A stretch of DNA of 64,000 bases, from assembly GCF_022919215.1 (NCBI RefSeq), contig NZ_CP095048.1, forward strand, positions 1-64,000, given 5' to 3'. A model generated the notes under the pieces. The model was not told the DNA's origin and did no database searches. It worked only from the letters and a program-made list of their open reading frames with translations. Positions 31,433 to 56,675 of this stretch are shown here, piece by piece (within the stretch, counting starts at the first letter, position 1; every line of letters begins with the position of its first letter). The DNA is from Hymenobacter cellulosilyticus (GTDB lineage: Bacteria > Bacteroidota > Bacteroidia > Cytophagales > Hymenobacteraceae). A program made the translations under genes and the position numbers.

Positions 31433-32107
31433 TCATCTTCTCCTTCTTCCAAACAAGGAGCGTCTCCCGTAGCGGGCCTCCGCCTTGTCAAGCGCTTCTT
31501 CTGCTTTGGACGACTCCGCAGGTGGTGGATACCGCTCGCGTAGCAGGTCATCCAGCAGAAAATCCGGCGCATGAAAAAAAACATCGAGACCAATGGTCTC
31601 CTCAAAGCGGGAACGCTCCTTTAGCTGGTGCTGATATGCATTGTAATACCCGTGTTTGAGATATACGAGCACTGAGTAGCGTCCATCGGTCAAATCGTGA
31701 ATGATGTTCTCCACATAGAACATGTATTCTCCGGTCACGGCCCGCAGGAAATCCAGCTGTAGCTGTTCGCCAACCCGGGGTGTGATGGGTAGGCGGCAGC
31801 TGAATGTCTGTGAGGCCCGCTGGCCAGTCAGGATGAGTTGGTGCTCTACCTGCTTGAAGGGTACGGCATCGGCATCGCTTTCCAGCAGGTGCAGGTAGGC
31901 CGCATATAATGCGTCAAGCCAGCGGCGGTATTTGGACGGGGAAATACCTAGGTCCTGCTGTAGCTTTTTGCCCGTGGGAACCTTTGCGTCGCTATCAAGA
32001 GCGAACAAGACTTTCGCCAGGGGCTGCCACTCCGCATTCTGCTCAGCAAGGCGGCGCAGCACCTTGGGTACTGTTACTAAGTCACGCGTCATCTCCTCCG
32101 ACTTCAT
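31433..32107 (-). CDS. Uncharacterised small protein B flanking the giant helicase
   Basis: 224 residues, starting MKSEEMTRDLVTVPKVLRRL. An N-terminal HTH-like helical segment (GKKLQQDLGISPSKYRRWLD) is followed by a beta-rich C-terminal domain, TPRVGEQLQLDFLRAVTGEY then YVENIIHDLTDGRYSVLVYL and RSRFEETI. The C-terminal domain is clearly homologous to the protein encoded at 40400-41080, on the other side of the helicase gene. I do not recognise a family. It follows the helicase stop by about 92 bases on the same strand and is probably co-transcribed. The basic tail (RYGRRSLFGRRRR) could contact nucleic acid. The frame is intact. Confidence 0.65.
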   Translation of the reverse strand: MKSEEMTRDLVTVPKVLRRLAEQNAEWQPLAKVLFALDSDAKVPTGKKLQQDLGISPSKYRRWLDALYAAYLHLLESDADAVPFKQVEHQLILTGQRASQTFSCRLPITPRVGEQLQLDFLRAVTGEYMFYVENIIHDLTDGRYSVLVYLKHGYYNAYQHQLKERSRFEETIGLDVFFHAPDFLLDDLLRERYPPPAESSKAEEALDKAEARYGRRSLFGRRRR

Positions 32108-32199: not shown

Positions 32200-35100
32200 T
32201 TACTCTTTGTAGTAGCCAGCGAAGTCAACCAGATAGATATGCCCTCGGGTAGCGGCATTCTGCCGCCAATTCTTCAGCGTGTAATCGGTGTTGTGTTTCT
32301 CATCATATTGTTGCGAATCCTGGTAGGTGTAATAGCTAACGCCGGAGACCGCCAGCCCCAGCAGCTCGTCTACCCGCGGCTCCTGCTTGAATGCCCCGTT
32401 CTTAACTGTCCAACCTGCCAACCGTTGCACCATAGCTGCCATTCAGCCCAGGATTTTCCGTTGAATGCCTTCTGAACCTTTATAAGCTTCACGGGGTCAC
32501 CAATCTTGATCTTGTGACGAATGAACTCATACGTTCTATCCTCCCGAGCACCCAGGAGATAAACAGCTTGTCTAGCCCGGGCTTGACGATCCGGCCAGGC
32601 GTTGCTCCTTATTGGCCAGCTGGTACGCCCGCCCTTCCTGCACGGCCGCCTCCCGGTCGTATTGGATGACGGCCAAGCGGTACCGGGCCCGGGTATAAGC
32701 TACGTACAGCAGCCGCCGCTCTTCCTCCGCCACCTGGCGCAGGTTGAGTACTGGCCTCCCGTCCCTATCGGTAGCGAAATCGGCAAAGGATGGCGGAATG
32801 AGCACGGCGTCAAACTCCAGCCCTTTCACCTTGTGCATGGTCGTGAGCACTACTTCCCGCCGCGAGTGGCCCGGCACCAGCTCCGGCATGTGCTTCTCGT
32901 AGAGCTTCATGAAATGGCCATCATCACGTCGGGCCATGTCATCAATGAAGTCCAGCAGGTCCTGATTTGTGGCGTCGTCTTCCTGCTCAACCCTGAACTC
33001 CCGTACCAGGCAATGTACCAGATGGATCAGGTACTCGTCCCACACGCCGGCAAAGCTTTGCAACGTCTGCTGTTTAGCGCGGGCAAACTCCTGCAGGTAG
33101 TTAGGGCTGAGGGGCGCTTCCGGATTTTGCTGGTAGGGCTGAAGCAGGTGCTGAAATTCGCGCGAGGTTACCGGCGAGCTGGAGGCCCCTTGGATACGCA
33201 GGGCCACATCGGGCGGAAGGGTTCGGGACTGCAGTTCGTTGAAAGCGCGGAACACCTCATCGTTGGAGCGCAGCATGACGGCAACCTGCTGGTAGCGCTT
33301 GCCCGGCTCGTATTCGGTTTCTGTTAGCAGCTCATCGAGCTTCACTTTCCAGTCAGTCTTGGTTTCCCGGAAAGACAGCAGCTCGCAATAGCCCATATTT
33401 CGCGCAGGCTTTCGAACGGGCTGCAGGGGTGGAATTGAAAACCGGTCCGGGTTATTGGCCAGCAGCCGGGCCGCCGCCTGCAGGATGCCGGGGTAGGAGC
33501 GGTAGTTGTTGCTTAGGTAATGCTTTTGGGGCTGATACAGCTCCTCAAACTCCGCATAATAGGGATACGGGTCAACCTCACCTCCCTCTGCTACGCGCTC
33601 ATACCCGTAAATGCTCTGATTAGGATCGCCAATAACGCAGAGCTTGGCCGAGCCAACGGGAGCAATGGTTTTGAGCATGGCCAGGCGCTCACCCGTTATG
33701 TCCTGAAACTCGTCCACGAACACGTATTCAACTGGCCCCAACTGCTGGCGAATCAGCCGCGGATTATGGGCCAGCGCCCGGGCCAGCTGCGGTACCCACT
33801 GGCTGAACTCTATGCCCTCCAACTCTCCTTGCAGGCAGCGCCGGCATAATCCATGGAAGGTGTACACGTGCAGTCGCTTAATGAGCTGCCCGTAACCCAA
33901 GGCCCGAAACAGCGTGCTCAACCGGTCCTTGAGCTCAACTACCACGGCCCGGTTGTACGCCAGTACCAGGATCTGGTCTGGTGGGATATTGTTCTTCTGG
34001 ATCAGGCGAGCGACGCGTAGCGTCAGGGTGTGCGTCTTGCCGCTGCCGGGCCCGGCAATCACCTGCAGGTTATCGCTTAGCGGCGCATCATAGACCTGCC
34101 GCTGCTCCGCACTGAGCTTCTCCTCGGCATCCTTAAGCGCCTCCTGCCGAAAGGCCCGCAGCATGGCATGGTCAGGGCCCAGGTGATCTGCCAGCAAGCC
34201 TACCAGGTCAGCGCTACCCTCACAGGCAAAGTACTGCTTGATAAAGGCGTCCTGTTTTTGATGGGGCATCGCGGCCAGGCATTCCAGAGCCAGCAGCCGA
34301 AGCTTTTTAAGCTCCGTTCCTTCTAAAAACTGCTGATGGGTCTGGTAATCCCGCGAAGACTGTTCCTCGTAGTCAGGGGTGGTTTGATCCAGCAGGAACA
34401 GCTCAATGCCCATGGGCATAAAGCTGCCGCCCCTTTGATGTAGCCTAGCGCCCGCGCCAGAAACAGCAGGCTATCTAAATAATCTACCCCGCTTCTTCCA
34501 GTTCCAGCGCCACCACCATGTCGGCGTAGTTGAAGGTGTACTCTCCCGTGAGCGTCTGAGCAGTCACATACTGTAGCAACGCCAGGAGCCGTTTTTTTAA
34601 TTCGGCCAGGGGCTTGCGCCAGAGAGAGTCGTGGCGGTTACCGTTATAAATCAGCTGCGTTACGCCCGGCTCACTGCGGTCGCGCACGTTCATGACGGAT
34701 TGCAGCCGCGTGTTAGGCAGCAGCCGTACCAGCTTCAGGGCGAATTTAGCCCGCTTCTCCCGCCAGTCCGCTGCCAGATCCTTAGCGGTTGTCTTCTTGT
34801 CAACCGGCTTCCCTTTTTTGAGCGGTGTCCAATAGATGTGGTCCGGCTGAAGGTGTTCAGCCGCCACTTCCCCCACCAGCCGGTCCAGCTCATTGCCGTC
34901 CAAGCTGCGTTGCGTCTGGGGAGCTATTGGGGCCAGGAGACGCTCCGCCAGCAGAAACACCGACTCCACCAGCGGCAAGTCCCGTTTGTTCCAGCGGGAT
35001 TCCTGCCAGGCTTTGAGCTCTGCTTCCCGCAGCTGCGTCAGCTCCAGATGCAGTTTCCGGTCAATGGATATGGCCTTGATCTTCTGGGCCAGAAACAGAA

Positions 35101-38100
35101 ACCGGAACAGCTCGGCGTGTCGGCTTTTACCCGATAGCGCTTTGAGTTCTTCCATCGGCATGCTCACAGCGGTGGCTTCGCGATACTTCGATGCGTGCAG
35201 CTGGGCAATAAATTGCTGCATCTGCGCCCGCTCCGTATCGTCTTTGATTTTCAGATAGCTGGGCTTCTCCAGTAGCAGCAGAGGTAGAAACGAGGGGGTA
35301 AATAGCCCGAGGCGAATACGACCCAGCAGTTCCAGCCAGTGCAGCGCCAGGCGGAACCGGACATCGTCCTCTTCTTTCTCATCGGCATCCCGCTGCCACA
35401 AATCCAGCGGCAGTGCCAAGGGCTCATGCACCAGTGTATCCAGCTCCCGGTACTTCTGCGCATACTGGTGAATCAGCTGTTGTGTCTTCAGCACGTACTC
35501 CCAGCTCAGTGCGGATTTGTGCTGCAGGTCGCGCAGCACCTGAAAATCCCGGCTGGCCATTACACAAACGGCCTGGATAGGATGGGCTTCAGAGAATCCG
35601 GCTGCCTCCAGCGCAGCCCGGTTTCGGCCCGCCCGGCCTACCTCCTGCAGGAAATCCTCAAAGGCGGAAGAGGGTCCCAGGTGGTATACGTAATGGATGT
35701 TTTTGATATCCATTCCCATGCCGAAGGCCTTGGTTGCCACCAGCACCACCGTTTCACCCGTCTGATACGCGGCGTACTTGCGCTCCCGGTCAAAGCCATC
35801 CAGCCCGGCATGGAAGTAATCAATCTGCTCGGCCCAGGGCAGCCCCGCTTCAGTGGCCAGCTCACTAAGCTGTTGAACTGCTTCTTCGGCCCGGCGGCGG
35901 GTCCGCACGAAAATAAGTACCCGGCTCACACTCGCATCGAAGGTCTTCTGCTGCAGGTTCCGCACGACGGTTTCCGCCTGCTGGACTTCTTCCTTGACCC
36001 GCTCAAAGCTCATGCGGATGTGCTCCCGCACCGGATTATAGGCTATTTCTCCTGGTCGCTCTATCATACAAATAGCTGCGTAAACTCCTGATAGATCTTT
36101 TCTGAGACGGTGGCCGAAAACAAGAGCACCGGGAAACGGCGGGAGCTTCCTTCCCGGAAGCGCTGAACGGCCTTCCCGGAATACAGGTAGTCGGGCCGGA
36201 ACTCGTGCCCCCATTGCGAAATGCAGTGTGCTTCATCGTACACCGCGTACTCCAAGCCTTGGTCGTTATTGAAGCGCTGCAGGAAGGCCTTGGTAAAGGC
36301 TCCGCTCCGGAAGCGCTCCGGGGTTATGAATAACAGGGAAATCTCCCCGCCCGCCAGCCGACGGTAAATCTGCGGCAGCTCATCCCGCTTATCCTGGTTG
36401 ATGTATTCCACGCTGCTGTAAAAGCCAAGCTTCCACAGGGCATTTACCTGGTCTTCCATCAAGGCCTTGAGGGGCGTGACGACAATGGTCAACCGGTTGG
36501 TAAAGGCGCTGCGGTACAAGGCCGGGGCCTGGAACAGCAGGGATTTGCCCCGCCCGTGGGCAGCGAGACCAGTAAGTCCGTCTGGGCGGGAAGGATCTTA
36601 TTGAGATAGGGCTGCTGGTGATCATACCAGGGATGGCCCTCCAGAAAGACTTTGCTCAGCAAGGTCTTGGCTTCCTCCAGGTCCAGCGTAAACTCCTGTT
36701 CCGGACGGGCACTCAGCAGCACCTGGTCGATCGTATGAGCGGCAGTGAGGTATTCCTCCTCGGTGGCCCAGAGAGCATCCGTGAAGTACTTCTGCATCTG
36801 CCAGGACTGCTCCAGGGCGGGAAAGTCACCCAAGCGGGGGTCCAGCAGCCAAAGATGATTGTCATCGTGGTTGTCCAGTAGCCGGGAGCGCAGCTGCTGC
36901 ACCAGTGGCTGCTGCAGCTTCAGCAGGAAAAACAGGTCACGCTCGAGCACGTCCTCCACGCTGCTGTCCTCAGCGGAACGGTTCTCCGGGGAACCAACCG
37001 ACTCGCTTGCCTCCACGTCCCGGGACTGTAGCCTTGCCCGGTCGAATAGCTGGGAGCCCCGGGCCAGAAAGTAGTTTTCAAGCAGGTTGAAGCTTTCCAG
37101 CACAAACTGAACCGGTCCCAGGTAATTAGCTTCTACCACGGCCGTTGCCTGACTGATCGGCACAATCAGGAGCCGCCGGCCCGATCCGTACTGGTGCAAT
37201 AGCTCCAAGCGACGACCCAGCGCGGCCTCCCGCCGCGGTATGAAAAAACCCTGACCCGGAAATATGCCTCCAAGGGCTCTACTTCCTCGAACCGCTGCAG
37301 GAGCAATACCAGGGGGAGAAGCTGCTGCGCTCCAAGATTTCCTTAACCAGAATGGCTTGTAGCAGCCAATAGCGGGAACGGTAGATGGTTTCCGGGTTGA
37401 AAGGCGTAATGCCCAGCCGTCGCTGCAGCGGCAGCTGGGCTAATCCCAGCCACGTTACCTGCTGACGAAGAAGTGGGCGCTCCGCTCCACTCACTACGTG
37501 CATTCGCGACGGCGCCAGTGAGGTAAGGAGCGCCTCCCAGTCAAAGCTGCCCCAGATGCGAAACTGTCCGTACAGATGCTTTTCCAACCACAGATTGGTA
37601 TAGGCGGCAGGAACCTGTGCCCCAAGCTCCGCCGCCTGATCACGGCGGAGCGCTACGAAGCTCTGGCCACCAGAAAATTTGATCCATGCGGGCCGGGTGG
37701 CCGGGCTCGCCAGCACATCAGCGGTGGCCAGCTCCCGCAACAGCAGCTTGCGGCCTAACGTGATGAGGTCAGGCTCCAGGACGATCACTTCCAGGTCTGG
37801 CTGGTCCTGTAGCTGCGTCAGGTGCGCCAGCAGCTGCTCCGCACTCAGGCAGATTCGCAGCCCATCCTGCCACAATGGTGTCGTCGGGGCGTGATGACAC
37901 TTGCTAAAGTCCACGATTGCCTGCAGGCGGTGCCGGAAAGCCGGAGCCATATTGGCCGGCACGGTGGGAATCTGGGCTTGCCGGCAATACCGGAAGTATC
38001 GTCCCGCGATAACGCGCTCAGCCGGGTGGTCTACCAGTTGTTCCAATACCGGCTCCTGGAGCACCTGCCGATAAGGAGCTGGCGTGTTGTCTGAATCCCA

Positions 38101-40226
38101 GAAGCTCATGAAGGACTCGGTTCGCAACTCGTTCCATAGCTCGGTGGGAGCCAGCACGAGTGTGCGCGGGGAGGTGCTCTGCTGCAGCTGCTCCCGCAGC
38201 AACCGCTGTCGCGAGGAGGGCTGCGGCTGCGGCCGCAGGTAGTCAGCAGCTTCGCGTCGCAAATCGGCTGCGGTTAACCATGCTTCCTGCTGCTGCGTCC
38301 GCAACCGGGTCAAGGTGTCCACCACTGCCGCGCCAAACAGGGGTGATAGCTCTTCCCACTCCGCTGGGGAAAGTAACAGCACCCGTCTTATCTGGGTTAG
38401 GAAAAGCTTTAGAGCAATCTCAGCATCCGCTTGCGCCTGGTGGGCAGTGCGCAGAGCCAGCACCTGCCAGTCCACGCTTAGTGCCATCTCAACTGTGAGC
38501 GTGTCCCAAAGGAAGTCCGCTTGCAGCTCCACGTCATGCTCCGCCAGCACCGGTGCGTCAAAATCGGTTAGGTTATGTCCCACCAGCAGGTACGGAGCGC
38601 TGTCGGCTACTCGGAACCGAAGCTGCTGCACCCGCTCCTCCACGGCGGTATCCCCTGGCCCGTATGCCACGCGCCCGGCCGGCCCCAGGCAATTTCGTGG
38701 ATGACTTCCCGGTCGCTCTCCAGATCAAGGCCCAAAGCGGAAAAGGTATCAAGGAGCTGCTGATCCCGGCCGGCCCGCACCCTGTCCAGCAGCAGAGGGC
38801 CGTTAGCCGGCGTTAACCACTGACTCACCGCAAGCAGCTCTTCATCCGTCAGCTGCGCCGCTACTCTATCCTGAGCCGTTGGCGGCAGGATGTTGAACTG
38901 GGCGAGTGCCGTCTCCCGCGGAAAAGCATGATGCTCCTCTTCCAACCAGACTTCCAAGTGTGCGGAGGCGGGAAGTGCTTCAAAAAGCTGTTGCTCGAGC
39001 TCCTTCGCGGCATCCGCAATGGCCATTCGGGCAATACGGCGGCGCTGACGGAAGACCTCGACCTCAGTGGTGGTGCCCGCCTGTTGCAGCCACAGCGCGA
39101 CGACCTCGTTGTAAACCTCGGGGTGCATCTTGGCCAGAAGTCCTTTAAGCTTGGCCAGATCTGCGTGCAGCTGTTCACCGTCCTGCTGAGGCAGGCAGGC
39201 CAGGCAGAGCCCGGCCAAGGTATGGTGCGGCGTACTAGTCCACCACGTCACAGCGGCTTCGGACGCGGCCAGCAGGTGAGCTAGTGGAGTCGCTACGGCT
39301 AGGTGACCAGCCAGGGGCGACTGGTAGTACAGCCATAGCTGCCAGGCATAAAATGGTGTCGATCGATTGAGAACCGTTTGCACCGACTCGGCAAGTAAAG
39401 CCGGCAGATGCTGGCTGATTTCTGTCAGCGCCTGTATGGCCGGACTCCACGACTCGGTATCCGTTACCGGGCGGATGCGGCTTAGTAGTTCCAGAGCGGT
39501 TGCTGCCCGTGCTTCTTCGGGTAGTACGCGTAGCAGAGTCAGGAGGGTATCTACGTCCACGTGCTGCTGCACCCGGTGAAGCAACGCCAGACTCTGGCTG
39601 AGGGGACGTGCCCAACGAACCTCCAGGGTGCCCGGCTTCTTTCTGCTGGGGCCTTCGGCAAATAGCACCCAGTCCTTTAGCTGGGGCAAGGTTCCAAAGG
39701 CGGAAAAATGCCAGAAAAGCTTTTCACTCGCGCCTCTTTTCAGCAGAAAGCCAAAGCCCCGTTCTCCAATTACGTCGACTACCTGCCCCAGATACATCTC
39801 ATCATCCCCGGGTTGCTTTGCCGCTGCATTCTTAGGTCTGGTAGCGCGATTTTGACCTCCCGCTTTGGGCTGCTGGGCGGCTTGGGCTGCCGGCGAAGGC
39901 TCCTTTTCGTCTGCAGCCGGTGTTGTACTTAACAGGCTTTGCGTCTCCGCGAGCAGTTCCAGGTTAATAGTGTGATTGTTGCGGGGAGGCTGGGGCTCTT
40001 CCGAGGTCTGCTCCGTAGTCTCCAGCGGGGCAATGTCATCTGGGTGGGGAATACCCAGTTCATTACTCAATATTGTTAGCCAAGCAGGCGGAGCCGTCCT
40101 TACGAACTTCAACTGTGCTTTTATTCCGTGCTTACCCAGAATATCTTCCAGCTGCTTGGGGCTGATCTTATAGTACTGATAGATTTTTGCAAGCTGCATA
40201 ACAAGATTGACCGGGTAGAAATGCAC
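32200..40226 (-). CDS. Giant nuclease-helicase: cold-shock-like, DEDDh exonuclease, RecQ-type and UvrD-type helicases (frameshifted)
   Basis: Frames join into one protein of about 2,670 residues. In order: N-terminal helices; an S1/CSD-like domain (QVVDVIGERGFGFLLKRG, about 39690-39790); DEDDh exonuclease motifs LGLDLESDREVIHEIAW (about 38660-38715), LLVGHNLTDFDAP and AHQAQADAEIALKLF. A RecQ-type helicase follows: LPTGRGKSLLFQAPALY after repair, [20 protein letters not shown] near 36200-36235, LLFSATVSEKIYQ and QEVGRAGRN near 35630. Then a UvrD-type helicase: VIAGPGSGKTHTLTLRVARL (near 34040), EYVFVDEFQDITG, VIGDPNQSIYGYERV and LLYVAYTRAR (near 32690). The tail reads GVSYYTYQDSQQYDEKHNTD. RecQ and UvrD parts read through when one G is restored to each of two G4 runs (near 34483 and 34422). 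Start uncertain: M at 40226 or 40199. It probably resects or unwinds invading DNA. Confidence 0.7.
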
Positions 40227-40399: not shown

Positions 40400-41080
40400 T
40401 TAGCTACGCTTGCGTGGCAGGCAGGCAGGTACATCCGGAACTGGCGCAGACGCTTTGGTAACCCCGTAGGCGGAATGTAGCCAGGTTCGCAGTTGATCCT
40501 CGTCCAACTCCCGCTCCAGGGAGTGGGTCAGCTTGTTCTCGAAGCGGGCGCGTGCCAGCAGCAGCTGGTAGTAGGGATCATACCGGCCAGCCGCAAGCTG
40601 CAGGTACACGGTAATTTTTCCTTCCTGGTATTCCGAGGTAATGCTCTCCACAAAGTAGGTGTCGTGCCCGGTTATAGCCCAGAGAAAGTCAAGCTCAACA
40701 TTCTCACCCACCTGTGGGACGCGGGCCAGCTGGCACCAGACCAACTGGTTCTGTCTATGACCTGGTATTATGAAGCAGTGCGTAACCTGTGGGCACTGGA
40801 TGACAGCTTCCTCGGCTGCTAAAGCAGCAAGGAAGGCCTGATAAAGCAGTTCCAAGGTCGGCCGGAACCGGGTCGCCTTGAGGTGGGCGCGCTGCTGCAA
40901 CAGTGCTAGGGTGGGAGGTTGATCCGGTTTCTCCCAGGCAAGCAGCAGGGCCAGCAGCGAGTCGTAGGGTTGTTCCCGCCCTTTCAGCCCTGAGAGGGCC
41001 AGCGGGGAGCGCAGCAGGTCACGCAGCAGGTCCCGGGTGGGCAGCGACTCTATCTCCCGCTGATCATAGTACTTTGGCAT
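40400..41080 (-). CDS. Uncharacterised small protein A flanking the giant helicase
   Basis: 226 residues, starting MPKYYDQREIESLPTRDLLR. A helical N-terminus with HTH-like spacing (TLALLQQRAHLKATRFRPTL then ELLYQAFLAAL) precedes the conserved domain ARVPQVGENVELDFLWAITG then YFVESITSEYQEGKITVYLQ and ARARFENKLT. It is homologous to the product of 31433-32107: the shared pattern is VGE..-LDFL.A.TG....VE.I with a later R..FE. It lies upstream of the giant helicase gene, 173 bases away on the same strand, and probably starts the operon. No known family was recognised. It could be a DNA-sensing or specificity subunit; that is inference. Confidence 0.65.
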   Translation of the reverse strand: MPKYYDQREIESLPTRDLLRDLLRSPLALSGLKGREQPYDSLLALLLAWEKPDQPPTLALLQQRAHLKATRFRPTLELLYQAFLAALAAEEAVIQCPQVTHCFIIPGHRQNQLVWCQLARVPQVGENVELDFLWAITGHDTYFVESITSEYQEGKITVYLQLAAGRYDPYYQLLLARARFENKLTHSLERELDEDQLRTWLHSAYGVTKASAPVPDVPACLPRKRS

Positions 41081-44578: not shown

Positions 44579-47500
44579 GTGTACTTCTCATCGCAGATCC
44601 ATTGGTAGCACTCCCTGGCCGGCGTCGGAGACTAAACGTGTCAAGATAGTGAACCACTTTGGGGAATTCATGCGAAGCTGCCGCGTCAGCAAGAGCAGCC
44701 TGCAGGCAGGCGGCAACTTCAGCGGTAGGTGAAGTTAAATCCCAAAAAGGATGAACTGCTACTACAATCATAGAGTCGCTGCGAAGCCCTTTCATAAACG
44801 AGCCATAGGTAGTCATCTCACCTCCGAACTGAAAGTCGCTGTTGAAATGGCTAAGCAAGTCTTCTGCATGATCCACCCACTCATCAAGCCCGGGCCGAGG
44901 AATTTTCCATCGGCGCCAGCCCTGTAGGAAGCATCGCTCATCAAGGTGAGCAGACTTATCGCCAGGCGCCAATCCATCAGGCTGTGGTAGGCCATGTTTC
45001 GGAAGCCTTTTAGGCAGTCGTAGCAGGCATCCAGGCATAATGGACGGTTGCCTTCTCTCAAGCGGTGCTCTGGGCTGGTGATGGAGGAGGCGTAATCTTG
45101 ATTCCCCGAGGGGCGCAGTATTGACTCCAGCACTTGTGGAAGCTCCTTATAGAGCTGTCGAACAAAGCCAGAGCCATTTACCAGAGCGTCGCAGAGCATA
45201 ATCTGTCCTACAAAAGCACTTGGCTCATCACCAAGGCGGACTCTTGTTATGCCCCCAACCTCGATCTCTGCTGGATCAACGTCTAGCCTGTCCGCCATCA
45301 CCCGCTGTAGCATGAAGGCTGCGCTGTAGTACGCTCCCCTCAAGGCGACGGACTGATGCCGGCTTGTGTTGGTAAAGTCTAGACAGAGTCCCTTAGCAAG
45401 GGTGCGTGGGCTAAGCTGCAGGATCTCGGTCTTACGACTAGCTGCCAGCGCGATGTGCTCGCGAGTCCTGCTGGGGAACTCGAGCCTTTCGAAGCGTCCA
45501 AGCTCCGTCTCATCGTCAAGCACCCACTGGATTGACCTCCAAGAGTCAGAGTTGCTATTCTTAACAGAGTAGCGACTGCCCTGAAAAAGTCTTCCCCCTT
45601 GCCACGGTTTACCGCCCAAGTGATGGCGGAGTCGCTGAGGCTGGCTGTGGTATTCCCCAATAGTGGGTGAGTCTCGGCCTTAAGCTGCTCGGCGACAAGC
45701 GGCGGGCGCTGAAAGCCGACCAGACGGCTGTCCTCGTCCTCTCCGCCGCCGAAGCTATCTCGGAAGGCAACGGGTATCCTAATGGGGAATATATCCGGCT
45801 TTATTCCTTTCGGCGCTATAATCTCGCGACCAGTCTGCTGAGCCGCAGCTAGGTCGTGATGACAGTTGGGACATGTCGTGAGCTCGCGCAGCGGCCGCGC
45901 CCCTGGCTGCTGCTCTTGCGCCGGGGTTTGGCTCTCGGTGTATCGGCAGAGCGGACAGGAAAGCATCCAGCGCTCCAGCGTGAAGGGGAACCCGCCGGGT
46001 GCATGGGAACTCGGCGATTCTTATCAACAGGAGCGATCTGGAGCTGGGTTGCAAAGCCAATCGAGCGGTGAACATACTTGTCCTTGGTTCGAAGCGCCTC
46101 CGGTGCAAAGTCAAAGATGGCCTGCTCTAGCGGACGCTCAATGCTGGGAAGCAGAAAGGACTTGCTCTCCTCGTTGAACGTGGCCCCAAGCTGCATGCTG
46201 CGAACGCTGTTCGGCAATCCATAGCCAGGAAGAATACCCCCCTGCGCAAGCCTTTCGGCCATGTTATCGCTGGGCACTACCCCTTCGGCGATGATAAGAT
46301 CGACTTCGCCGAGTAGCGAGTTGTCGCTGGTACCGTGGGCCCATGCAAGCGCCGGCTCCAAGAGTTGAGCGTGCTGGCCAGCAAGAATGAGACTGACCAC
46401 TGAGCGACTCAGGTCCTTAGCGGCTTGATCGCTTGTGATCCACTCCTTGACGAAGGGGCCAAGCGTTAGCCAGTCATCGCAGCGGCCAAAAGCTCCGGCG
46501 ACGTTGCTGCCTTTATCGGGCGCCACCGGGCCTAGCCGATTAAATGCATAGCGGAAGGCTTCGTGGAGCAGTGCCTTGGCTAGCACTCGCCGAATGATTC
46601 TGTTCTGCCCCGTGGCTAGAAAAGGAATGGGCGGCGAGTCACCAGTGATTCGCTCGGGACGGGCAAAATAATGCTCGTCGTGACTGCGACCGCGGCAGAA
46701 GGTTAGAGCAACAGACCATGCTTGGCCTGCGCGTCCAGCCCGGCCTACCCGCTGCTGGTAGTTGTAGCGCTGAGGCGGCATATTTGCCAGCAGCACCGCT
46801 TGGAGCGAGCCAATATCAACCCCTACCTCCAACGTCGTCGTAACGCTCAGCAGATCTATCGTGCGAACAAGCGCATCGCCATCCTTGCTTAGGATAACAT
46901 TGCGGAAGTGGCGCTGGCGCTCCGCCTGATTATCCGTCTGCCCCGAAAGCTCCTCGCAGTGTAGTCGGATCTGTCTCTCAGAGCTTCGAGTGGTATTGCT
47001 TGCTAAATAGTTGTTCTCCCATAGCTTGCCACATCGCAGTTGATCCTCTATGCCCAAATTCATGGCCATGGGTTTTAGGCAGTTGGTGCAGACGGGAAGG
47101 CTTAGATCGAGGTGCGGCCGCCTACATCGCTGGCATAGCTTAATCTCGCGATCGGCATCGGCCGGCTCAATCCAAAGGCTTTTTAATACGACCCGGCCCC
47201 AGCCGTCAAGGAGACCTAGGTTTGATAGGGAGAGGAAGATAGCCTCCTCTAGGCGACTGCTATCGACTTTCAGCGTACTGCCTAAGAGCGTAATAAATTC
47301 TCTATAACGCTTAGGCATAGCCTCGTACTCAGCCACTCCGTCTGGCTCGTCGCTATACTCGTAGGGCGTATACAAGCGTAAGTCTCCGAGCTTTCGCATG
47401 GCCGCGGCCAAAAGCTCATGGAGAGCCTCAGGACTCACGCTAACGTCAGGGAAGCAGTGGCGAATAACTTCGACAAGGACCTCTCTTACCGAAGCTATCT

Positions 47501-50500
47501 GGTCAAATACAGTTACCTTCTGCTCCAACGGGGGCGCCACTGCCCTGCCAAGACCAGAGGACTCCAGGGAGTAGAAGATTCGGTAGAAGAGCAGCGCTCC
47601 AATATTGGCCAGCACCGAGTCCTCGACCTTTGCTAGGAAGGCTGTGTGGTTCTCATCATTCGCAAGAGGGGCTGCCAAAATCTGATACCACGGCACTGAT
47701 CCATATTTGCTGGTCGAGGAAGGGGCTTTCTGCACCTTTTTTCCAACCCCTGCAGGGTTGACGCCGAGCTTCAGAGACCTGGTCAGCAGATCACCGGCTT
47801 GCAGTCTCGGACCTACGCTGGCGACACTGCTGCTAATGCCTTTAAGTTGAAGCCCCCCGTCGGAGCACGCAGCGGTGCTGGCTTCGTCTCCACTAGCGAT
47901 AGCACGGAGCGTGCCTCGCGACGGCCCAGTAGAGTTACAAGCAACTCCCGCATGAGATCGCGGTGATGGCCGCGCTCAAGCTCGGCGGCGGCGCGGGCAG
48001 CCTCCTCACGACTGTCCGAGAAAACGACAAGCTTGCGCCCCATGCCCGTAGCCGGCAACTGCAGCAGCAGGTTCTTGGCGAGCACCTGGCTGATACGCCC
48101 AAAACCGGTACCAAAGTCGCGAATGCTGCTCTTGCCCCGGCGAGAAGCTCCGGCATAGTAGCGGTGATGCGACCCTGCTGTGCAGCAAGGACAGACTTGA
48201 GCCAAAGCCCGCAACTGTCGGGCCTCATCGCCAACATCAAGCATATCCTTGGCTTTATCCTTATCGCTCTCACGAACGCGAAACGTGAGGCCCGCTACCC
48301 ACTCCTGAGCCTGGGACGGCTGCTCATCTGGCGCGCTCATACCAAGGCGGACGCGACCGGAGGCTCGGTGAAGCCAAGCTGGCTCCCAAGCGCCTGCAGG
48401 CTTGCCCGTTGCTCCGCTGAGAAAAGGCTGGTTGAACGGTTGCAAGCTGGCAGCTTCCTGGCCTCCTTTAGGCCAGAAGAGGCCATAGTCTGCATAGCTT
48501 CGCTGGTCCGCGCTTGGCGAGCCCGAGTCTGGCAATCCCTCCAGATCGGGACTGGTGCTGATAAGCTGGTGATGCCATTCTCCCATATCTGAGCGCACTC
48601 TCGACCCACCATGGAACACGGTGCCGCAGGTATCGCAGTACAAGACCTCCAGCAGCACCGCCCCGTCAGCTCCTCGTATGGCAGACTCGGAGCTAAGCCT
48701 GCCGAGCGGGTCTGCAAGCTCCCCGCCAGCTGTCTGGCCGGCGAAGCCTGGCTCTGCCCACATTCCTTGGATGTTGTGAAAGAAGTAGTGGAAGCGCAGT
48801 CGGGGAAGCTGTCCCCATAGGGCAGTATCCTCGTCAAGCAGCGCCCGGGCAATAAGCAGGCCGCTCATGGCTTCCCTTGACTCGCTGAGCGTGGGCGTGG
48901 ACCCAAAGAGGGCATCGGCAAGGGGAGTAAATCCTTCTGGCTCGCTGCTGCCCTCGACTCTGGTCAGCGGAATAGCTCTCAGTCTCCCCTCAACGGAGCA
49001 GGCTGCTTGAAGCATCTGCCGCAGGCGCGGCATCAGCGCAGTCATCGCTGCAATCAGTGTGTCTCCCTGCTGGCTTTGCGGCCAGCCCAAGCTACACGCA
49101 AGACTGCGGGCAAGTTCCTGCCGGTGCGAGGCCGTGACATCGCGTCCCTCGGGCGTGGGCGGCAGGCTCTTGGCAAAGTTTGCGAAAGGTTCCCAAGGCA
49201 GATAGCCAGGCTCTGGCGTGCCCAGAGCCTCATGTCTTGCAGTCGAAGCACCGGCGTCACCCGAAATGGTGAGGAAGGATTTGTCACGCACCCCAAAGAA
49301 GTCACGCAAGAATTGCTCACTGCGGCTCATCCCAGCGCCCGGATTGGCTGCGCTCTCCTCAAGGGATGCACTGCTAGCCAAGATGCGCAGTTGGGGATGG
49401 TCGGGACTCAGACCTAGGCGGTGCAGAACCAGTCGCAGCAAGTAGGCTACCTCCGTGCCCGGGGTGCCGCGGTAAAGGTGGAGTTCATCGATAACAAGAT
49501 GAAACACCCGCTCTCGCCGGCAGCGCTCCTGCCGCTCCGACTCGCTTAAGCTAGCAGGAAGATCAATGCCCTGGAGCCACTCCCGGGTCTTTCTGAAGAT
49601 AGCTTCGTCATGGTCCCGCATCAGCATGATGCTGAGCATGGAGTAGTTTGTGATCAGGATGTCAGGCGGCGAGTCCTGCATATCGAAGCGGGTGAGCATC
49701 TCGCTACCGCCAGGCCTGGGAAAGAAGGATCTTAGCTCCTCAGCACTCATTCCCGTCTGCTTTACCCGATCCTCGTCCTTTGTGAACTCTACAATTGCCA
49801 GTGCGTCCTCGTCCAGCTTGAGAAGCTGGTGCTGAAGCTCCTTCACCCTATCGCGCTGGACAGCGCCATTGGCAACGAGTTCACCCGAAGTAGGAGTCTG
49901 GCCGGTGTAGCGACCAAAGTAGATGCGGTTGCCACCGGTATTATCTTCGTACCAGGTAGTGGACTTCTCAGAGTCTAGCGCACGCCGCAGGCGAGTCATC
50001 TGGTCCTCCACCAGCGCATTCATAGGGTAGAGCACCAAGGCGCGCACGGCTGCCGGCCGCGTCTCGTGGCCACGCTGGCGAGCCTTCTTAATAAGGCCGC
50101 TGCTGCTCTGTCCCGGGCGGACCATCTGCAGAACTTCATCTAAGCTTTTATCCCACCAGCGGCCCGCAGGGCCCGATTCTACTGGCTCCCACCCAGCAGA
50201 CTCCCTGACCAGTTGCGCGAATAGGGGCAGCAGAAATGACTCAGTCTTGCCTGAGCCCGTGCCCGAGGTGATAACGCAATGCTGCTTGCCCCGCAAGCTC
50301 TCTCGGAGCATCGCTGTCTGGTGAGTATACAGCTTGTGCTTAGGATCTATCAGTCCCGCGCTGACGAGTGAGGCAAAGCGCTCGCGGGCCTTGCTGTCCA
50401 CAAAGCCCGGCAGGTCTTCCTCCGTAAGCTCGGTAATCTTCCGATCGCTCTTGTACTCGGTTAGCACCTCCACCCACGGCTGCCGAAACAGGACTCGGTC

Positions 50501-50620
50501 GGAGCGAAGAAGGCTTTCTCGGCGGCTGTCGAGCGCGGGAGACTTTATGTTAAAGGCCGTTCGCATGTAAAGGATCAAGTCCTCTACTAGCGCATCGAAA
50601 GTACCTAGTGGGTTAAGCAT
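44569..50620 (-). CDS. druE: DruE-like DEAD/DEAH helicase with DUF1998 (frameshifted)
   Basis: The start MLNPLGTFDALVEDLILYMR is at 50620. Frames join into about 2,017 residues. Helicase motifs: LYTHQTAMLRESL, CVITSGTGSGKTESFLLPLF (Walker A, near 50270), RALVLYPMNALVEDQM, ITNYSMLSIMLMRD, LVIDELHLYRGTPGTEVAYL (DExH, near 49490), RILASSASL, then TTTLEVGVDIGSLQAVLLAN and YNYQQRVGRAGRAGQAW (motif VI, near 46740). A zinc-ribbon segment (CPLCRYTES, then TTCPNCHHD) precedes the DUF1998 signature CLDACYDCLKGFRNMAYHSL (near 45000). Length and a single helicase-DUF1998 polypeptide fit Druantia DruE better than DISARM, where DrmA and DrmB are separate. Frame changes lie near 47850, 45990, 45600 and 44900. 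The upstream gene ends 19 bases before the start. Confidence 0.7.
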
Positions 50621-50638
50621 GGCGTTGGCATAGTTAAA

Positions 50639-53600
50639 TTAAGCTAGCTCGCTGTGATTGCAGCGAGGGGCGACCTGGCCGAGCATGGGCTGTAGGCAGT
50701 AAGTGAGAAGCGTGGCCGGTACCTCGCGGTAGATGTGGTATCGGCGGGGGTGCCATCAGCGACAATCACGCGTAGCTCGGGCACAGTGCCGCTGAGAAGA
50801 GTAAGCATTCTCGCGGGCAATGGGGGCAATGGGGTAGCAGCCGGTACGGCCAGCGACCGGATAGAGGGGTAATAGCGCCATACCTGGCACCTAGCCTGCT
50901 TGAGCGCTAGGTATCGGGCCCAACTCGGATTTGCCCTGTATCTTCTCCCATCCTGTATGACTAGGAAGCGAACATCAAATCGCCCCTTGATAGTGCTGTT
51001 GTGTCTGAGCTCGACTAGCCCCTGCTTGGGTAGGGGACCGCTAGGGGAGGAAGTCCAAGAGAGGTGCTGCGGGTTGAACAGGCGCTGGATATAGGCTTCA
51101 TAGATGCCGCTATCTTCCCCCGCTCCATCAGCAGGCGCTCGTAGCCTGCTAGCCCTGCGCCGCCAAAGCTGGCCAGCGCGAGGGCAGTAGGCTCTTCGTT
51201 GAACACTATGCCACAGGCTGCTGCTAGCTGATGTAGACGCTCAGTGGCGCTAGGTCCGCTGGGCAATAGGGCGCTGAGGCTGCCCAGACCTTTGAGGCGC
51301 AGGCCGCCTGTTCCATTCGAAGACACAGTAGAGTAGGTCTCTAGAATAATAGCATCCGGCAGCAGGCTTCTGCCTGCATAGCTTCCTTGGGAAATGCGAG
51401 TTGCTCGTATGCTGTACTCCCCGACCTTTTCTATGATCTTGTCCAGTAGACTAGGAACCCTTGCGCCCACAAGAAGCGCTCGTACTGCAGTTTTAGTCCC
51501 ACCAGGCAGCTTGATAAGCGCCGGGCGTTGAGCTTCTATATCACCGCTCGGCAGAATAGTTATGTGCCCGAGGTGCGTTAGCAGGCGTCGGCTCTCGAGC
51601 AATGCCTCAACATCGGGCACCTCATTCCCAAGGGCAGCGGAAATGGCGGTAAACGCCGCCACAAAGCGAGGCTTTGAGGTCCTGCCTCGATGGCTAAGGA
51701 AGTATAGAAGGCTGTCGTGGGTATCGGCTTGCAAGGCAAGGCCAGTAGTCCCAGCAACTGCTGTCGGCGCGTTGTCATAGAGCGCCAGTAGGGCATTTTT
51801 CAGTGGCAAGCTGTCTCGGCCAAGCACCGCGCCGCTTAGATAGCGGGATGCATCAGGACCATCCAGCCCTGCTCCCGTCTGCCAGACGCCTGCCTGCGCT
51901 TGGATGGGCTCATCGTAGGGTCCGAGGCGTTGAGCGTACTCCCCATCGCTCGGAATCGCTGGTACTATCAGTACGGTAGCGCGGGATACCGATCCTAGCG
52001 CAGTACTCACCTTGAACCAGCGACCAGGGCATACATCTATGGGAAGCCTCCAGAGGGAGTTATCGTCCTCGTGCTGGATAAGCGAAGCGGATCCACCGCC
52101 CACGTACTCAAGTCGCGGCGCGTGTCCGCCGAGCGTATCACTCTCGTGAAGCCGGAAGGAGGGTAAGAGCGCTGTAGAGCTAGAGAGAAGGTATCGACCT
52201 CCAGCTAGTGGTAGCCCCCCAGGGGCAAAACAGGCCGGGAGAGAGGGATGCTACGTGCTCTGGTAAGAAGGCCCGGCGGCGGAGAATGGAGGGATCGCAC
52301 CTCATAGAGACTGTATTCGAGGGCAGACCGCGCCGTCTCAACTGGCGGAAGCTTTGGGCACCTGCCTTAGCCCACTGCTCTAGATCGTTTTGGAGATTAT
52401 CCTTGCAGAGCAGAAGCAATCGCCGTTCAGTCTGCCAGTCACTTGTCTCCACCCAGTCCGGCAGACTGTATATGTCCGCCCGCTCCAGGAGGTATATCTC
52501 CTTTGGCTCGAAGGCGTAGGCGCAACTCATCTCATCCACATCAACACGCTGCGCGGTCCAGGACAGTCCCCTCACCAGCCCGGACCATATCCTGCTCTCA
52601 CTCTCACACACTACCTCCCGATCGCCCGTCTCAAATACTAAGCTTGCCGGCAGCGGCTGCCGAGCCGAGTATATGCGAAGTCCCCATTCCACAGAAGCCA
52701 CAGCTGGCTGATCGGCTAAGAAGAGAACAAAGGGCTCCACTTTCTCCTTGGCAGGCTGATAAGGCTGCTCGCTTGAGCGTGCAGCAACTCTTACGGGTAT
52801 ACCAAGCAACTCCTCTGTACGGGAGATTGTACTCTCTTTTAGGTCGCTATTCTTCTGCCATAGGCTCAACGCCGTGGGCTCAGGAAAGGGAAGCCGCGCC
52901 AGCAGGCTCTCCTGTAGCAAGCCCAGGATCTGATCGCGGGAGTACACAGGGAGCTTATGAGCATCCGCATGCTCTAGGAAGAAGTCGCGAAGCTGGCGCC
53001 GAAGGCGTGGAGGGAACAGACACTGGCCTAAGGGGAACGATACATAGGGGTAGCAGCCGTACTGTCGAGCAGTAAATACGCCCAGGCGCCCGCCCTGCGC
53101 TTGGGTAGACCAATCCGCTACGCTCTTCCAAAGCTGGGTCCAGCCTGGCAGCTTGCCTTGGAGGGTGCTTCTTAGGGCGCTTGTTGCAAAGGGGCCATCT
53201 TCAGTTGACCACAGATCATTCTCCTCCAGCCAGTGGGCCACTCGCTGGTAGTAGCTGTTGGTCGTCAGCGTCAGGTCGATTATGGAACTGCTGTAGGGGA
53301 GAATAAACGCGACTAGGTAAGGCAGGTGTAGCGGATACTGAGGCGCCAGGTTGTTGAATGCTCCACTTGCTACGTCACCAAGAGGGGATATGGAAGACTT
53401 TGCAAGCCACCGAGCACAGGACTTGCCAGCCCGGACAAGAATGTTGGCCGGGGATCGGAGCCCTCAGCTGGTCCTACTCTGAGTGCCTGTAGGAAGCTTT
53501 GCCAGCGTTCCTCTTCATTAGGAATGTTCTCTCCCTGTGCAGCAAGGAATTTTTTGCTGAAGCTTAGAAGGTCATCCCTATCTAAGTCAAGGAAAACCTC

Positions 53601-53669
53601 GCGTCCAGCCTTTTCCTGGTTGAAGAGGGCACCGCCGATGCACCTGCACCAAGCGCTGTAGCTCATCAT
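50639..53669 (-). CDS. DruH-like large protein upstream of druE (frameshifted)
   Basis: Starting MMSYSAWCRCIGGALFNQEK, frames join into about 1,000 residues with no enzymatic motif that I recognise. Landmarks: AGREVFLDLDRDDLLSFSKK; YVSFPLGQCLFPPRLRRQLR; LPVYSRDQILGLLQESLLAR; PFVLFLADQPAVASVEWGLR; RDSLPLKNALLALYDNAPTA; LVELRHNSTIKGRFDVRFLV. The ending is YREVPATLLTYCLQPMLGQV with TAA near 50640. Its size, lack of known domains and position just before a DruE-like helicase suggest the DruH component of a type III Druantia system, but I base this on context, not on a remembered alignment. Frame changes lie near 53350, 52170, 51070 and 50750. The two genes are surely one operon. Confidence 0.45.
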
Positions 53670-54082
53670 TGCTGATGCTTTGGGGGGGGATCTGCTAGAC
53701 CAGGGGAGTCGTCGATGGGTGGATGCACGAGGGTGAGTTAGGCTGGCAGTCCCGACATTTTATGAGTCTGCAATCTAGAGCGTGTTAATGACTTTCGAGC
53801 CTTTTCAGCATTACCGCAAAACAGCCAAGGCGTAAAGAAGCCTGCTACGGCATCTTCTCGGCCTCAACTGGACCTGCGACATAGCTTCAGCGCAATTCAG
53901 CCAGTTAGAGAAATCGCCTCAACTCGCTGGAATGGACATAACACGCTCTAAGAAATGAGTAATATAGCGTTTAACAATACTTGATTTAAGTGAAGACGAA
54001 TTTCTTGAATTAAATCAAGTCTTGGAAGACGTAAATACGCCAGGCAGAGCGCTTCTCGCGGCTGATAGCCAATAAAAATTCC
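53670..54082. other. Gene-free interval upstream of the DruH-like gene
   Basis: About 410 bases, more AT-rich than the flanks, with no credible frame. It should contain the promoter of the minus-strand Druantia-like operon. I saw no clear operator, RNA gene or repeat. It also contains the 3' side of the small minus-strand gene ending at 54083. Confidence 0.4.
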
Positions 54083-54511
54083 CTAAAAGCGCTCATCTAG
54101 ATGCACTAGCCCATTAAGGAACCATGTTGTCCGATGGCCTTGGAAGCGTAGCGTACAAGCAAACTCTGCCCGCTCATGTGCATCCTGAAGCGAGTTGCCA
54201 ACTACCTCAAACTCTTCTTCAATGTATGGCAGCGGGCGTAGCTCATCCGGTAGGTGCGGTCCATCCTCACCGGTCACGCGAACATGATACACTTGGTAGC
54301 CGGTCGGCAGCAGGTCAGTAGCGTATACCGCCTGCTGACCGCATCTGCGACAGCGAACAGCAATTTCAACTGTATCACCGCTTCGTGCTAGCACCTTACC
54401 GGCGGCGTGAGGCATGACCTTTTGGTCGTGCAAGCAGAAGAGTTGAACAAAGCTGGCGGGTCGAAAGCCAATACCAGTTGTAGTAGGAAGACGGGACCGT
54501 CGGGTAGTCAT
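54083..54511 (-). CDS. Hypothetical protein with one CxxC
   Basis: 142 residues, starting MTTRRSRLPTTTGIGFRPAS. A single CxxC-type element (VRCRRCGQQAVYATDLLPTG) sits in the middle and a second Cys-containing loop (LFCLHDQKVMPH) is near the N-terminus, so a small zinc-binding fold is possible. The C-terminal part (EEEFEVVGNSLQDAHERAEF) is helical. I recognise no family. It lies upstream of, and on the same strand as, the Druantia-like operon, but 414 bases away, and diverges from the Vsr operon. It may be a regulator or accessory of either system. Confidence 0.5.
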   Translation of the reverse strand: MTTRRSRLPTTTGIGFRPASFVQLFCLHDQKVMPHAAGKVLARSGDTVEIAVRCRRCGQQAVYATDLLPTGYQVYHVRVTGEDGPHLPDELRPLPYIEEEFEVVGNSLQDAHERAEFACTLRFQGHRTTWFLNGLVHLDERF

Positions 54512-54853
54512 TGGGCACAGAATTATGGGTGATAAAGGTAGGAATTGCTAATGTTCGCTGCTCACTATAGCCAGTGCGGAGGGGGGTGCTTGACTATGAT
54601 AGAGCCTGAGTTGGCTCGTGCGAATGCAGATATTCAGCCAGCCTGGAAAGCTATCGAGCGCTGGCTCCATTCAATGTCACCAACTCGTCTCCGCGTTCGC
54701 AAGGGGAGAGTTGGCTTCGGAAAGAGATTAGCTTTTCCTTGATGAGCCTTGTTCGCTTGTCTTAGTCAGAGTAGCTTTGTAATTGGGCTAGCTATACTAA
54801 ATAAATTAGCGCCGTGCTAAGCCCAGGTTCCCGAACTGAAAGGCAAAGCGTGC
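54512..54853. other. Intergenic interval upstream of the Vsr operon
   Basis: About 340 bases between divergent genes. A 65-residue plus-strand frame (54545-54742) has no recognisable content, and I leave it uncalled. The AT-rich part near 54770-54815 is the likely promoter region for the Vsr-Dcm-MORC-Z1 operon. No dyad or RNA is evident. Confidence 0.4.
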
Positions 54854-55303
54854 GTGGCAATTAAATTTAGAGACCCGGATAGCGGCTACCCAATGCCCAA
54901 GTCTCTGGCCGTCACCAAGACGATGCAAGGGAACAAGGCAAAGGACTCCAAGCCTGAGCTTTTACTGCGCAAAGCTCTCTGGCAGGCAGGAGTAAGAGGG
55001 TATCGCTTACATAGGAAGGGCATACCGGGCAAGCCTGACTTGGTCTTCCCAGCCAGACGAGTAGCTATTTTCGTCCACGGCTGCTATTGGCATAGCTGTC
55101 CAATCTGCGCGATAGCACGCCCAAAGCATAATGCAGCCTACTGGAATGAAAAGCTAGCTGGCAATAGTCGGCGCGACGCTCTAAACACTGAGCGTCTTGT
55201 CGAAGATGGCTGGCGGGTACACACGGTTTGGGAATGCCAAATAAAATCCTCGCTTGGCGAGGCTGTTCAACAAATAAAAGACTTGCTAGCTTCACATAGC
55301 TAG
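54854..55303 (+). CDS. vsr: Vsr-family endonuclease
   Basis: 149 residues; the frame starts at GTG 54854 (MAIKFRDPDSGYPMPKSLAV). Family features: MQGNKAKDSKPELLLRKALW, GYRLHRKGIPGKPDLVFPAR (the Asp is the metal ligand), VAIFVHGCYWHSCPICA (catalytic His region and zinc Cys), RPKHNAAYWNEKLAGNSRRD and WRVHTVWECQI. Classical Vsr nicks at T:G mismatches made by deamination at Dcm sites. In MORC-Z1 operons, Vsr-type nucleases are instead proposed to be the restriction nuclease. Its stop (TAG 55301-55303) overlaps the GTG start of the methyltransferase by one base. The frame is intact. Confidence 0.85.
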   Translation: MAIKFRDPDSGYPMPKSLAVTKTMQGNKAKDSKPELLLRKALWQAGVRGYRLHRKGIPGKPDLVFPARRVAIFVHGCYWHSCPICAIARPKHNAAYWNEKLAGNSRRDALNTERLVEDGWRVHTVWECQIKSSLGEAVQQIKDLLASHS

Positions 55304-56675
55304 TGAATAAGATGCTGAAATTCATTGATTTGTTTGCTGGTTTAGGCGGGTTCCATGTTGGGTTGAAGCAACTTGATATGGAATGCGTCTTTGCTTCGGA
55401 GCTAAACAAAGAGCTGCGCGAGCTCTACCATGTAAACCACGAGCTTGCCGAGGACATGATACGAGGCGACATCAGAGAGGTGAGCGAGCACGATATTCCT
55501 GCTCACTCGCTGCTCTGTGCAGGCTTCCCTTGCCAGCCATTCTCCAAAGCTGGAGCACAGGAGGGGCTAAGCGACGAAGTGCGGGGTAACCTGTTCTATC
55601 AGATTATGCGCATCATCAATCATCACAAGCCTCGGTATGTGATGCTGGAGAATGTTGCTAACCTGCTTAAGCATGACAAGAATAATACCTGGGCCGTCAT
55701 CAAAAGGACGCTTCAGGAGGCAGGATACCAGGTAGACCATCGTATTCTCTCGCCTCACCAATTCGGTGTGCCGCAGCTGCGGCAGCGAATGTTCATTGTA
55801 GCAGCCAGAAAGGATGAAGGCGGACTGGAGCATTTTGTTTGGCCCGAGCCTGAGAGCCACGCGCACATGACTGTGCGAAGCATCATTGAGGCTGAGCCCG
55901 ATGAGGCCGACGTTCGCAGTTTCACGGAGAGAGAGTTGAACGCAGTAGCCGTCTGGCAGCGGTTTTTGGACTGCTTGCCCGAGAGTGCGGTCATTCCCTC
56001 GTTCCCTATCTGGGCCACTGAGTACAAGGCGACATATCCTTTCGAAACTGAGGTGCCAGGCATGCTCAGAAAGTCAAAGCTCGCACCTTACAAGGGAGTA
56101 TTCGGACGAAGTCTCGCTGACCAGCCTAGTCGTGAGCAGTTGGAGCACATTCCTACCTATGCGCGTGGCAAAAAGCTCTTTCCTGTCTGGAAGCAGCAGT
56201 TCATCCGCGATAACCGTGCTTTCTTCAAGAAGTATGAGAGTGAGCTCGAAGACGTGATGAAGGAGATTCAGGAGCTTCCGTTCAGCTGGCAGAAGTTCGA
56301 GTGGAACTGTAAAGGGGAGCCGCGGGACCTCAAGAGATTGATTTTCCAGTTCCGACCTTCTGGCATTCGCGTTAAGCGAGCCAACTTCTTCCCGGCTCTG
56401 GTCGCCTCTACCCTTACGCAAGTACCTGCTATTGGCTGGCTAGACCGGTACATCACCCCAATGAAGGGATTAGATTGCAGTCGCTTGGCACTATATCGCT
56501 TCCTGCAAATAAAACGGCAGCCTTTAGGGCGCTTGGCAACGCCGTAAACGCCGAGGTTGTGAAGCGAATCGCCGCCCGCCTTGTGCAGTTGCCCGACCCA
56601 ATCAAGAAATATCAGCCTGCACAGCAGCGCTTGTCCCTAAACTCTACCTTGCCGAGCAACTTAGTCACTATATGA
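55303..56675 (+). CDS. dcm: DNA cytosine-5 methyltransferase (one frameshift)
   Basis: The start is GTG 55303 or ATG 55312 (MLKFIDLFAGLGGFHVGLKQ). C5-MTase motifs: I FIDLFAGLGG; IV SLLCAGFPCQPFSKAG with the catalytic Cys of PCQ; VI PRYVMLENVANLL; VIII FGVPQLRQRMFIVA. A target-recognition region of about 200 residues follows, and IX to X lie in WLDRYITPNEGIRLQSL then AAFRALGNAVNAEVVKRIAA. Motif X is reached only by adding one base at the ccccaa stretch near 56457-56462; the reading frame as given stops early at 56547. The corrected stop TGA (56673-56675) overlaps the MORC start as ATGA. It would protect host DNA against the operon's own nuclease. Confidence 0.85.

Follow-up and report, generated by a model that had tools for sequence, protein, structure and literature searches.

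The 64,000-nucleotide stretch of Hymenobacter cellulosilyticus DNA analysed here (the window; contig NZ_CP095048.1, 117.6 kb) carries on its minus strand two overlapping genes, A (36064..40199) and B (32200..36067). Together they are predicted to encode a DEDDh exonuclease, a DinG/XPD-like fold, a RecQ helicase core divided between the two proteins, and a UvrD-type helicase. We consider it probable that the family to which they belong is a defence-associated DNA-destruction engine, that its split RecQ motor is completed by A:B assembly, and that sequencing errors account for the frame breaks in the window. An earlier note on this DNA had proposed a single chain of ~2,670 residues; a stop and start inside the RecQ core at 36064-36067, conserved in all six intact relatives of the same bacterial family, speaks against such a chain here.

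Gene A comprises an N-terminal region, the exonuclease, the DinG/XPD-like fold, and the first RecA lobe of RecQ, while gene B comprises the second RecA lobe, a linker region, the UvrD helicase, and a C-terminal domain. Both are frame-broken in this assembly, in which the minus strand of 32200-40226 forms six main open frames. The ATG at 40199 agrees with the aligned start of the intact relatives, the stop of B is read directly at 32200-32202, and an ATGA within the RecQ core (36064..36067, minus strand) places the start of B over the stop of A. Open reading frames (ORFs), Pfam, and mapping bear out the order of DEDDh, RecQ, and UvrD motifs that had been proposed for this one strand. When the six frames were searched separately, three matched Pfam, namely the DEAD lobe, the helicase C lobe, and the UvrD families. 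Both the domain content and the division into two overlapping genes are read from sequence or from structure prediction.

The DEDDh domain (38368..38744, minus strand; motifs DLESD, VGHN..FD, and H...D) is assigned by mapping, invariant residues, and fold. It gave no Pfam match at E 0.1 and one weak NCBIfam match to part of the domain (E 4e-4). A PDB search with a profile of the domain retrieved DEDDh enzymes at E 4e-4 and 0.006, and the predicted fold of the domain resembles the ExoI and T7 polymerase exonucleases. The catalytic D, E, D, H, and D show no substitution in any of the 64 aligned relatives, which were picked because the exonuclease profile matched them. A cold-shock-like region gave only a weak Pfam match below the cut-off (E 0.069). 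Between exonuclease and RecQ lies a module that the earlier note had not described, as it had not described the further frame breaks in A and B. This module (36708..38265, minus strand, bounds approximate) adopts a DinG/XPD helicase fold in the predicted structure (Foldseek, VIA-align), with other SF2 folds scoring close behind. The Walker A pattern [AG]x4GK[ST] was found in this module in none of the 64 relatives, and we describe it as a pseudo-helicase.

The RecQ core shows Walker A, DEAH, SAT, and motif VI across its two lobes, with Pfam scores far beyond chance (DEAD 3e-16, Helicase_C 1e-16). The first lobe (36079..36665, minus strand) carries Walker A, DEAH, and the SAT motif, and the second (35555..36037, minus strand), a close match to RecQ, carries motif VI, QEVGRAGR. 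The region after the second lobe, at the position of the RecQ zinc-binding and RQC domains, has no Pfam match; its alignment with RecQL4 (5lst) covers 323 residues. The UvrD-like superfamily 1 (SF1) helicase (32647..34134, minus strand; GPGSGKT, DEFQD, VAYTRAR) matches PF00580 (1e-35) and PF13361 (5e-19), and both SF1A motifs and UvrD_C are present. The RecQ halves fall under the NCBIfam RecQ cut-offs, in a scan that covered the split form, and the UvrD part lies far under the NCBIfam pcrA and uvrD equivalog cut-offs.

Within the window's bacterial family, the RecQ/linker part occurs in 7 of 200 genomes, its own included, and the exonuclease and UvrD parts occur in the same seven. In the six other genomes the locus consists of two open genes, A of 1,380-1,534 amino acids (aa) and B of 1,288-1,313 aa, whose stop and start overlap by 1, 1, 4, 4, 17, and 17 nucleotides (nt). 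A stops just past the first-lobe SAT motif, and B opens at the second lobe, with the boundary placed in the linker that joins the RecQ lobes. The stretch from the second lobe to UvrD, for which the earlier note had inferred frame continuity, is a single open frame in these relatives. For plasmid pHsw1 of Hymenobacter swuensis, a RefSeq-derived table gives the pair, WP_044000431.1 and WP_044000430.1, as a 'DEAD/DEAH box helicase' and an 'ATP-dependent helicase' overlapping by 17 nt. Because the stop/start boundary is conserved in the intact relatives, we read the locus in the window's clade as two overlapping genes, not one, with the RecQ core divided between them.

Beyond this clade, a protein search with B returned 213 relatives, of which the best 120 are mostly about 1,290 aa long. 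One protein, P0113 (2,249 aa), naturally combines exonuclease, RecQ, and UvrD in a single chain, as judged from its motifs by eye. A scan of species genomes gave 105 relatives, and the best 80 of these loci were analysed with purpose-made profiles. The two RecQ lobes share one frame in 57 loci, are split in 20, and are truncated in two, with one locus (L077) not classed. Stop-to-stop frames span 2,439-3,175 codons in 46 of the 57 fused loci; the remainder either run off the ends of contigs or belong to Anaerobiospirillum, whose forms are longer or cut. Exonuclease and first-lobe profiles lie in one frame in 69 of the 80 loci, and in four Anaerobiospirillum loci the exonuclease profile gave no match. 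The second lobe and UvrD share a frame in all 20 split loci, so that RecQ-like and UvrD-like parts are not always separate genes. The proposal of exonuclease, RecQ, and UvrD in one protein thus stands for the family, in which the one-chain architecture is, by its sequences, real and naturally split in Hymenobacter and flavobacteria, and falls for the window's own clade, which has two proteins.

The history of the split was examined on a quick LG+G4 tree of 74 of the 80 loci, leaving out truncated loci and rows of fewer than 1,100 residues. The split label requires three changes, compared with a shuffled mean of 17.8 and with none of 500 shuffles as low. The split groups are three: 17 Hymenobacter and flavobacterial rows that form one clade, the pair L048 and L084, and L070. 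Long branches are flagged, above all that of L070, whose placement is unsure. Three is a count on this tree, not proof of three origins, and would correspond to up to three separate splits. Among viral contigs, 139 relatives were found (best E 5e-19); none of the best 80 of these loci, which were profiled, carried all modules. One viral frame of 1,648 codons (L100:6438-11381) contains both RecQ lobes and a UvrD part, without an exonuclease match, and is possibly a distant relative. In a DNA search of plasmids, the sole match was the neighbouring Fic-family gene, and the corresponding protein search returned one relative, on a plasmid record.

The individual domains are already known; we class their combination as a candidate helicase-nuclease defence effector, for which we found no matching model or paper. 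When A, B, and one fused protein were compared with PADLOC-DB 2.0, no model covered the whole protein, and the matches listed concerned the RecQ part or the UvrD part only. This agrees with the earlier statement that no named defence system is known to have this set. The RecQ-like defence helicases of PADLOC, DpdF and PsyrT, have a RecQ-like core in common with the family, and the match is confined to that part. As in RecQ helicases, both RecA lobes and the main motifs are present. In contrast to them, each lobe belongs to a protein of its own in the 20 split loci, those of the window's clade included, and the core is joined to other motors; in the 57 fused loci the lobes form one chain. An SF1 helicase with intact motifs is shared with UvrD/PcrA and with GajB of Gabija, but that of the family is embedded in a large chain. 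RecBCD and AddAB, which process DNA ends and are known to destroy phage DNA, likewise combine two motors with a nuclease, but their helicase and nuclease families differ. With ExoDinG, the DinG of Staphylococcus aureus and Bacillus subtilis, the family shares N-terminal DEDDh exonuclease residues and, according to the structural model, a DinG/XPD helicase fold after them. It differs in that its module has no Walker A pattern (64/64) and is followed by RecQ and UvrD helicases. In the open-access literature we found no paper on a RecQ-UvrD-exonuclease protein or on a split RecQ. A 2025 DinG review lists ExoDinG, with RecQ unmentioned in the part of its text consulted (PMC11981726), and a survey of Argonautes describes UvrD-type helicases in pAgo operons, with RecQ and DinG unmentioned in the part consulted (PMC6299218).

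The neighbours of the family were surveyed at 82 loci, the 80 above and two Hymenobacteraceae relatives (L012, L014), and are enriched in defence genes, namely type I restriction, Argonaute, McrBC, and NERD-UvrD genes. HsdR lies in the flank of eight loci, within 34 nt in five, and L014 was confirmed to carry HsdM and HsdS domains. Argonaute genes stand upstream of the one-chain form in L044 (3713-5767, 16 nt) and L046 (3716-5761, 1 nt). McrC lies near five loci by BLAST, with two more (L033 and L039) by Pfam. The pAgo assignment and three DrmD-like SNF2 proteins were confirmed among the neighbours. At 40 loci, one or both sides have a same-strand neighbour no more than 60 nt away.

A PADLOC scan of these neighbours (1e-10; 132 of the 137 nearest genes picked) matched 163 families. 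The first 25 of the 163 include six type I restriction members, 12 of the GajB model, ten NERD+UvrD, four WYL, and three DrmD, and none is GajA, the OLD-family partner in Gabija. A control of 121 genes from eight stretches of four relatives, all drawn from one bacterial family, matched 50 PADLOC families with one member each, and the 25 of these 50 that were listed are all GajB or DRT helicase models. NERD-UvrD genes are found at 13 of the 82 loci, within 14 nt in 11. In these cases, mostly from Bacteroidales, a NERD-nuclease/UvrD gene begins no more than 14 nt after the one-chain form (L049, L050, L051, L053, L054, L061, L065, L067, L068, L082, and L093). The one-chain form and this gene likely constitute a separate two-gene system. 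Downstream of the divergent split form L070 lie genes (L070:14054-18840) that we take to resemble ZorA/ZorB.

In the window, the pair is flanked by two paralogues. A 224-aa protein (31433..32107, minus strand; ORF) lies directly downstream and is conserved in Hymenobacter telluris with 87% identity, and a 226-aa paralogue (40400..41080, minus strand; ORF) lies directly upstream and is found in H. telluris with about 80% identity. A further relative occurs at L016:3448-3960, on the same contig. Other defence genes detected by PADLOC agree with the defence island proposed for this region. The pair sits beside a Druantia-like cluster (44813-56547), which contains a DruE2-like protein broken into three or more frame pieces (44813-45619, 45849-47735, and 47813-50620), weak DruF- and DruL-like pieces, and a cytosine methylase matching type II methylase and DruM2 models. 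Beside the methylase, a protein at 58337-59989 matches the PADLOC 'Helicase_II' model (1e-53), and next to it, at 56672-58006, lies what we take to be a putative GHKL-type ATPase, which has no PADLOC match. A protein at 61972-63537 matches the defence models NsnA (4e-64) and PD-T4-2_A (4e-54).

The breaks in the window could mean that this copy is a decaying, inactive pseudogene, and nine single-base gaps in about 8 kb relative to the intact H. telluris copy (95.2% identical DNA) would fit such decay. All nine, however, are bases missing from the window, and seven lie at G or C runs when inspected by eye. Furthermore, rpoB (G000:C1:81804-85651) is in two frames in this assembly and whole in four of four relatives, and the N-terminal domain of dnaN lies in a frame of only 142 aa. 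ORFs sampled from the organism's chromosome average 286 aa, compared with 355 aa in the relatives; those of at least 600 aa number 4.4 per 100 kb, compared with 9.9, and G/C runs of six or more are fewer. Several observations weigh against assembly error and favour decay: both gyrA and polA are unbroken, the remainder of the window's contig has 11.2 ORFs of at least 600 aa per 100 kb (mean ORF length 272 aa), and long G/C runs are not scarce on that contig, where the run test leaves assembly error unsupported. On balance, because of the nine missing bases relative to an intact relative and an rpoB broken here and whole elsewhere, the breaks other than the A/B boundary are very probably assembly errors, the organism would carry an intact pair, and a pseudogene is improbable. 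The broken rpoB also calls for caution with other findings from this genome. It is very unlikely that A and B form one giant chain here too, or are joined by programmed frameshifting at their overlap. The RecQ lobes do lie together in 57 of the 80 loci, and the overlap would permit a change of frame; against this stand the stop kept in every intact relative and the two genes of the RefSeq-derived table. Programmed frameshifting was set aside because overlap lengths (1 to 47 nt) and relative frames vary across the 20 split loci, each with an ATG overlapping the stop of A, which fits re-initiation rather than one slippery site.

A role in general DNA repair or resection rather than defence is unlikely. 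DinG, RecQ, and UvrD are repair families, and a same-strand neighbour within 60 nt is absent from many loci. The patchy occurrence in the bacterial family, the copy on a plasmid record, and the frequent proximity to restriction systems, with Argonaute in two loci, argue against such a role. We give little credence to a plasmid maintenance or anti-restriction factor that would repair cut plasmid DNA for its own replicon. The 117.6 kb contig carries relaxase-like and coupling-protein-like genes (by eye), and in H. swuensis the copy sits on a mobilizable plasmid; copies nevertheless also occur on chromosome-sized contigs (the 4.7 Mb contig of G052 and one of Saprospira grandis) and adjoin HsdR.

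We therefore return to the DNA-destruction engine. The phrases 'complete resection machine' and 'defence system' of the earlier note remain inferences, and we infer the defence role from genomic context; a DNA-degrading effector serving several detectors is the most likely function. We postulate that A and B are translated together and form a complex, and that only in this A:B complex is the RecQ ATPase assembled, with Walker A and DEAH contributed by A and the arginine of motif VI by B. Such binding and a common ATPase site are likely because of the one-chain relatives and the motif positions. A partner detector (a type I restriction enzyme, Argonaute, McrBC, or NERD-UvrD protein) would recognise or cut foreign DNA. 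The motors RecQ and UvrD, whose known families run 3'-5', would then open the DNA, starting at the break. The pseudo-DinG module would hold a strand, and the exonuclease would degrade it 3'-5', leaving the invader beyond repair. Because of the domain chemistry and the neighbours, we suggest with moderate confidence that DNA is degraded from a break made or marked by the partner system. More tentatively, and somewhat short of an even chance, the family may be a widespread effector plugged into different detectors, its ATPase site split up to three times between the lobes and its motor active only once the halves have assembled.

A machine that unites three helicase folds with an exonuclease, and that occurs in several phyla beside several kinds of DNA-sensing defence, suggests a common answer to the question of what finishes off foreign DNA after its recognition. 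The split RecQ core and its one-chain relatives would provide a direct test of whether the assembly of two lobes from separate proteins can regulate a helicase.
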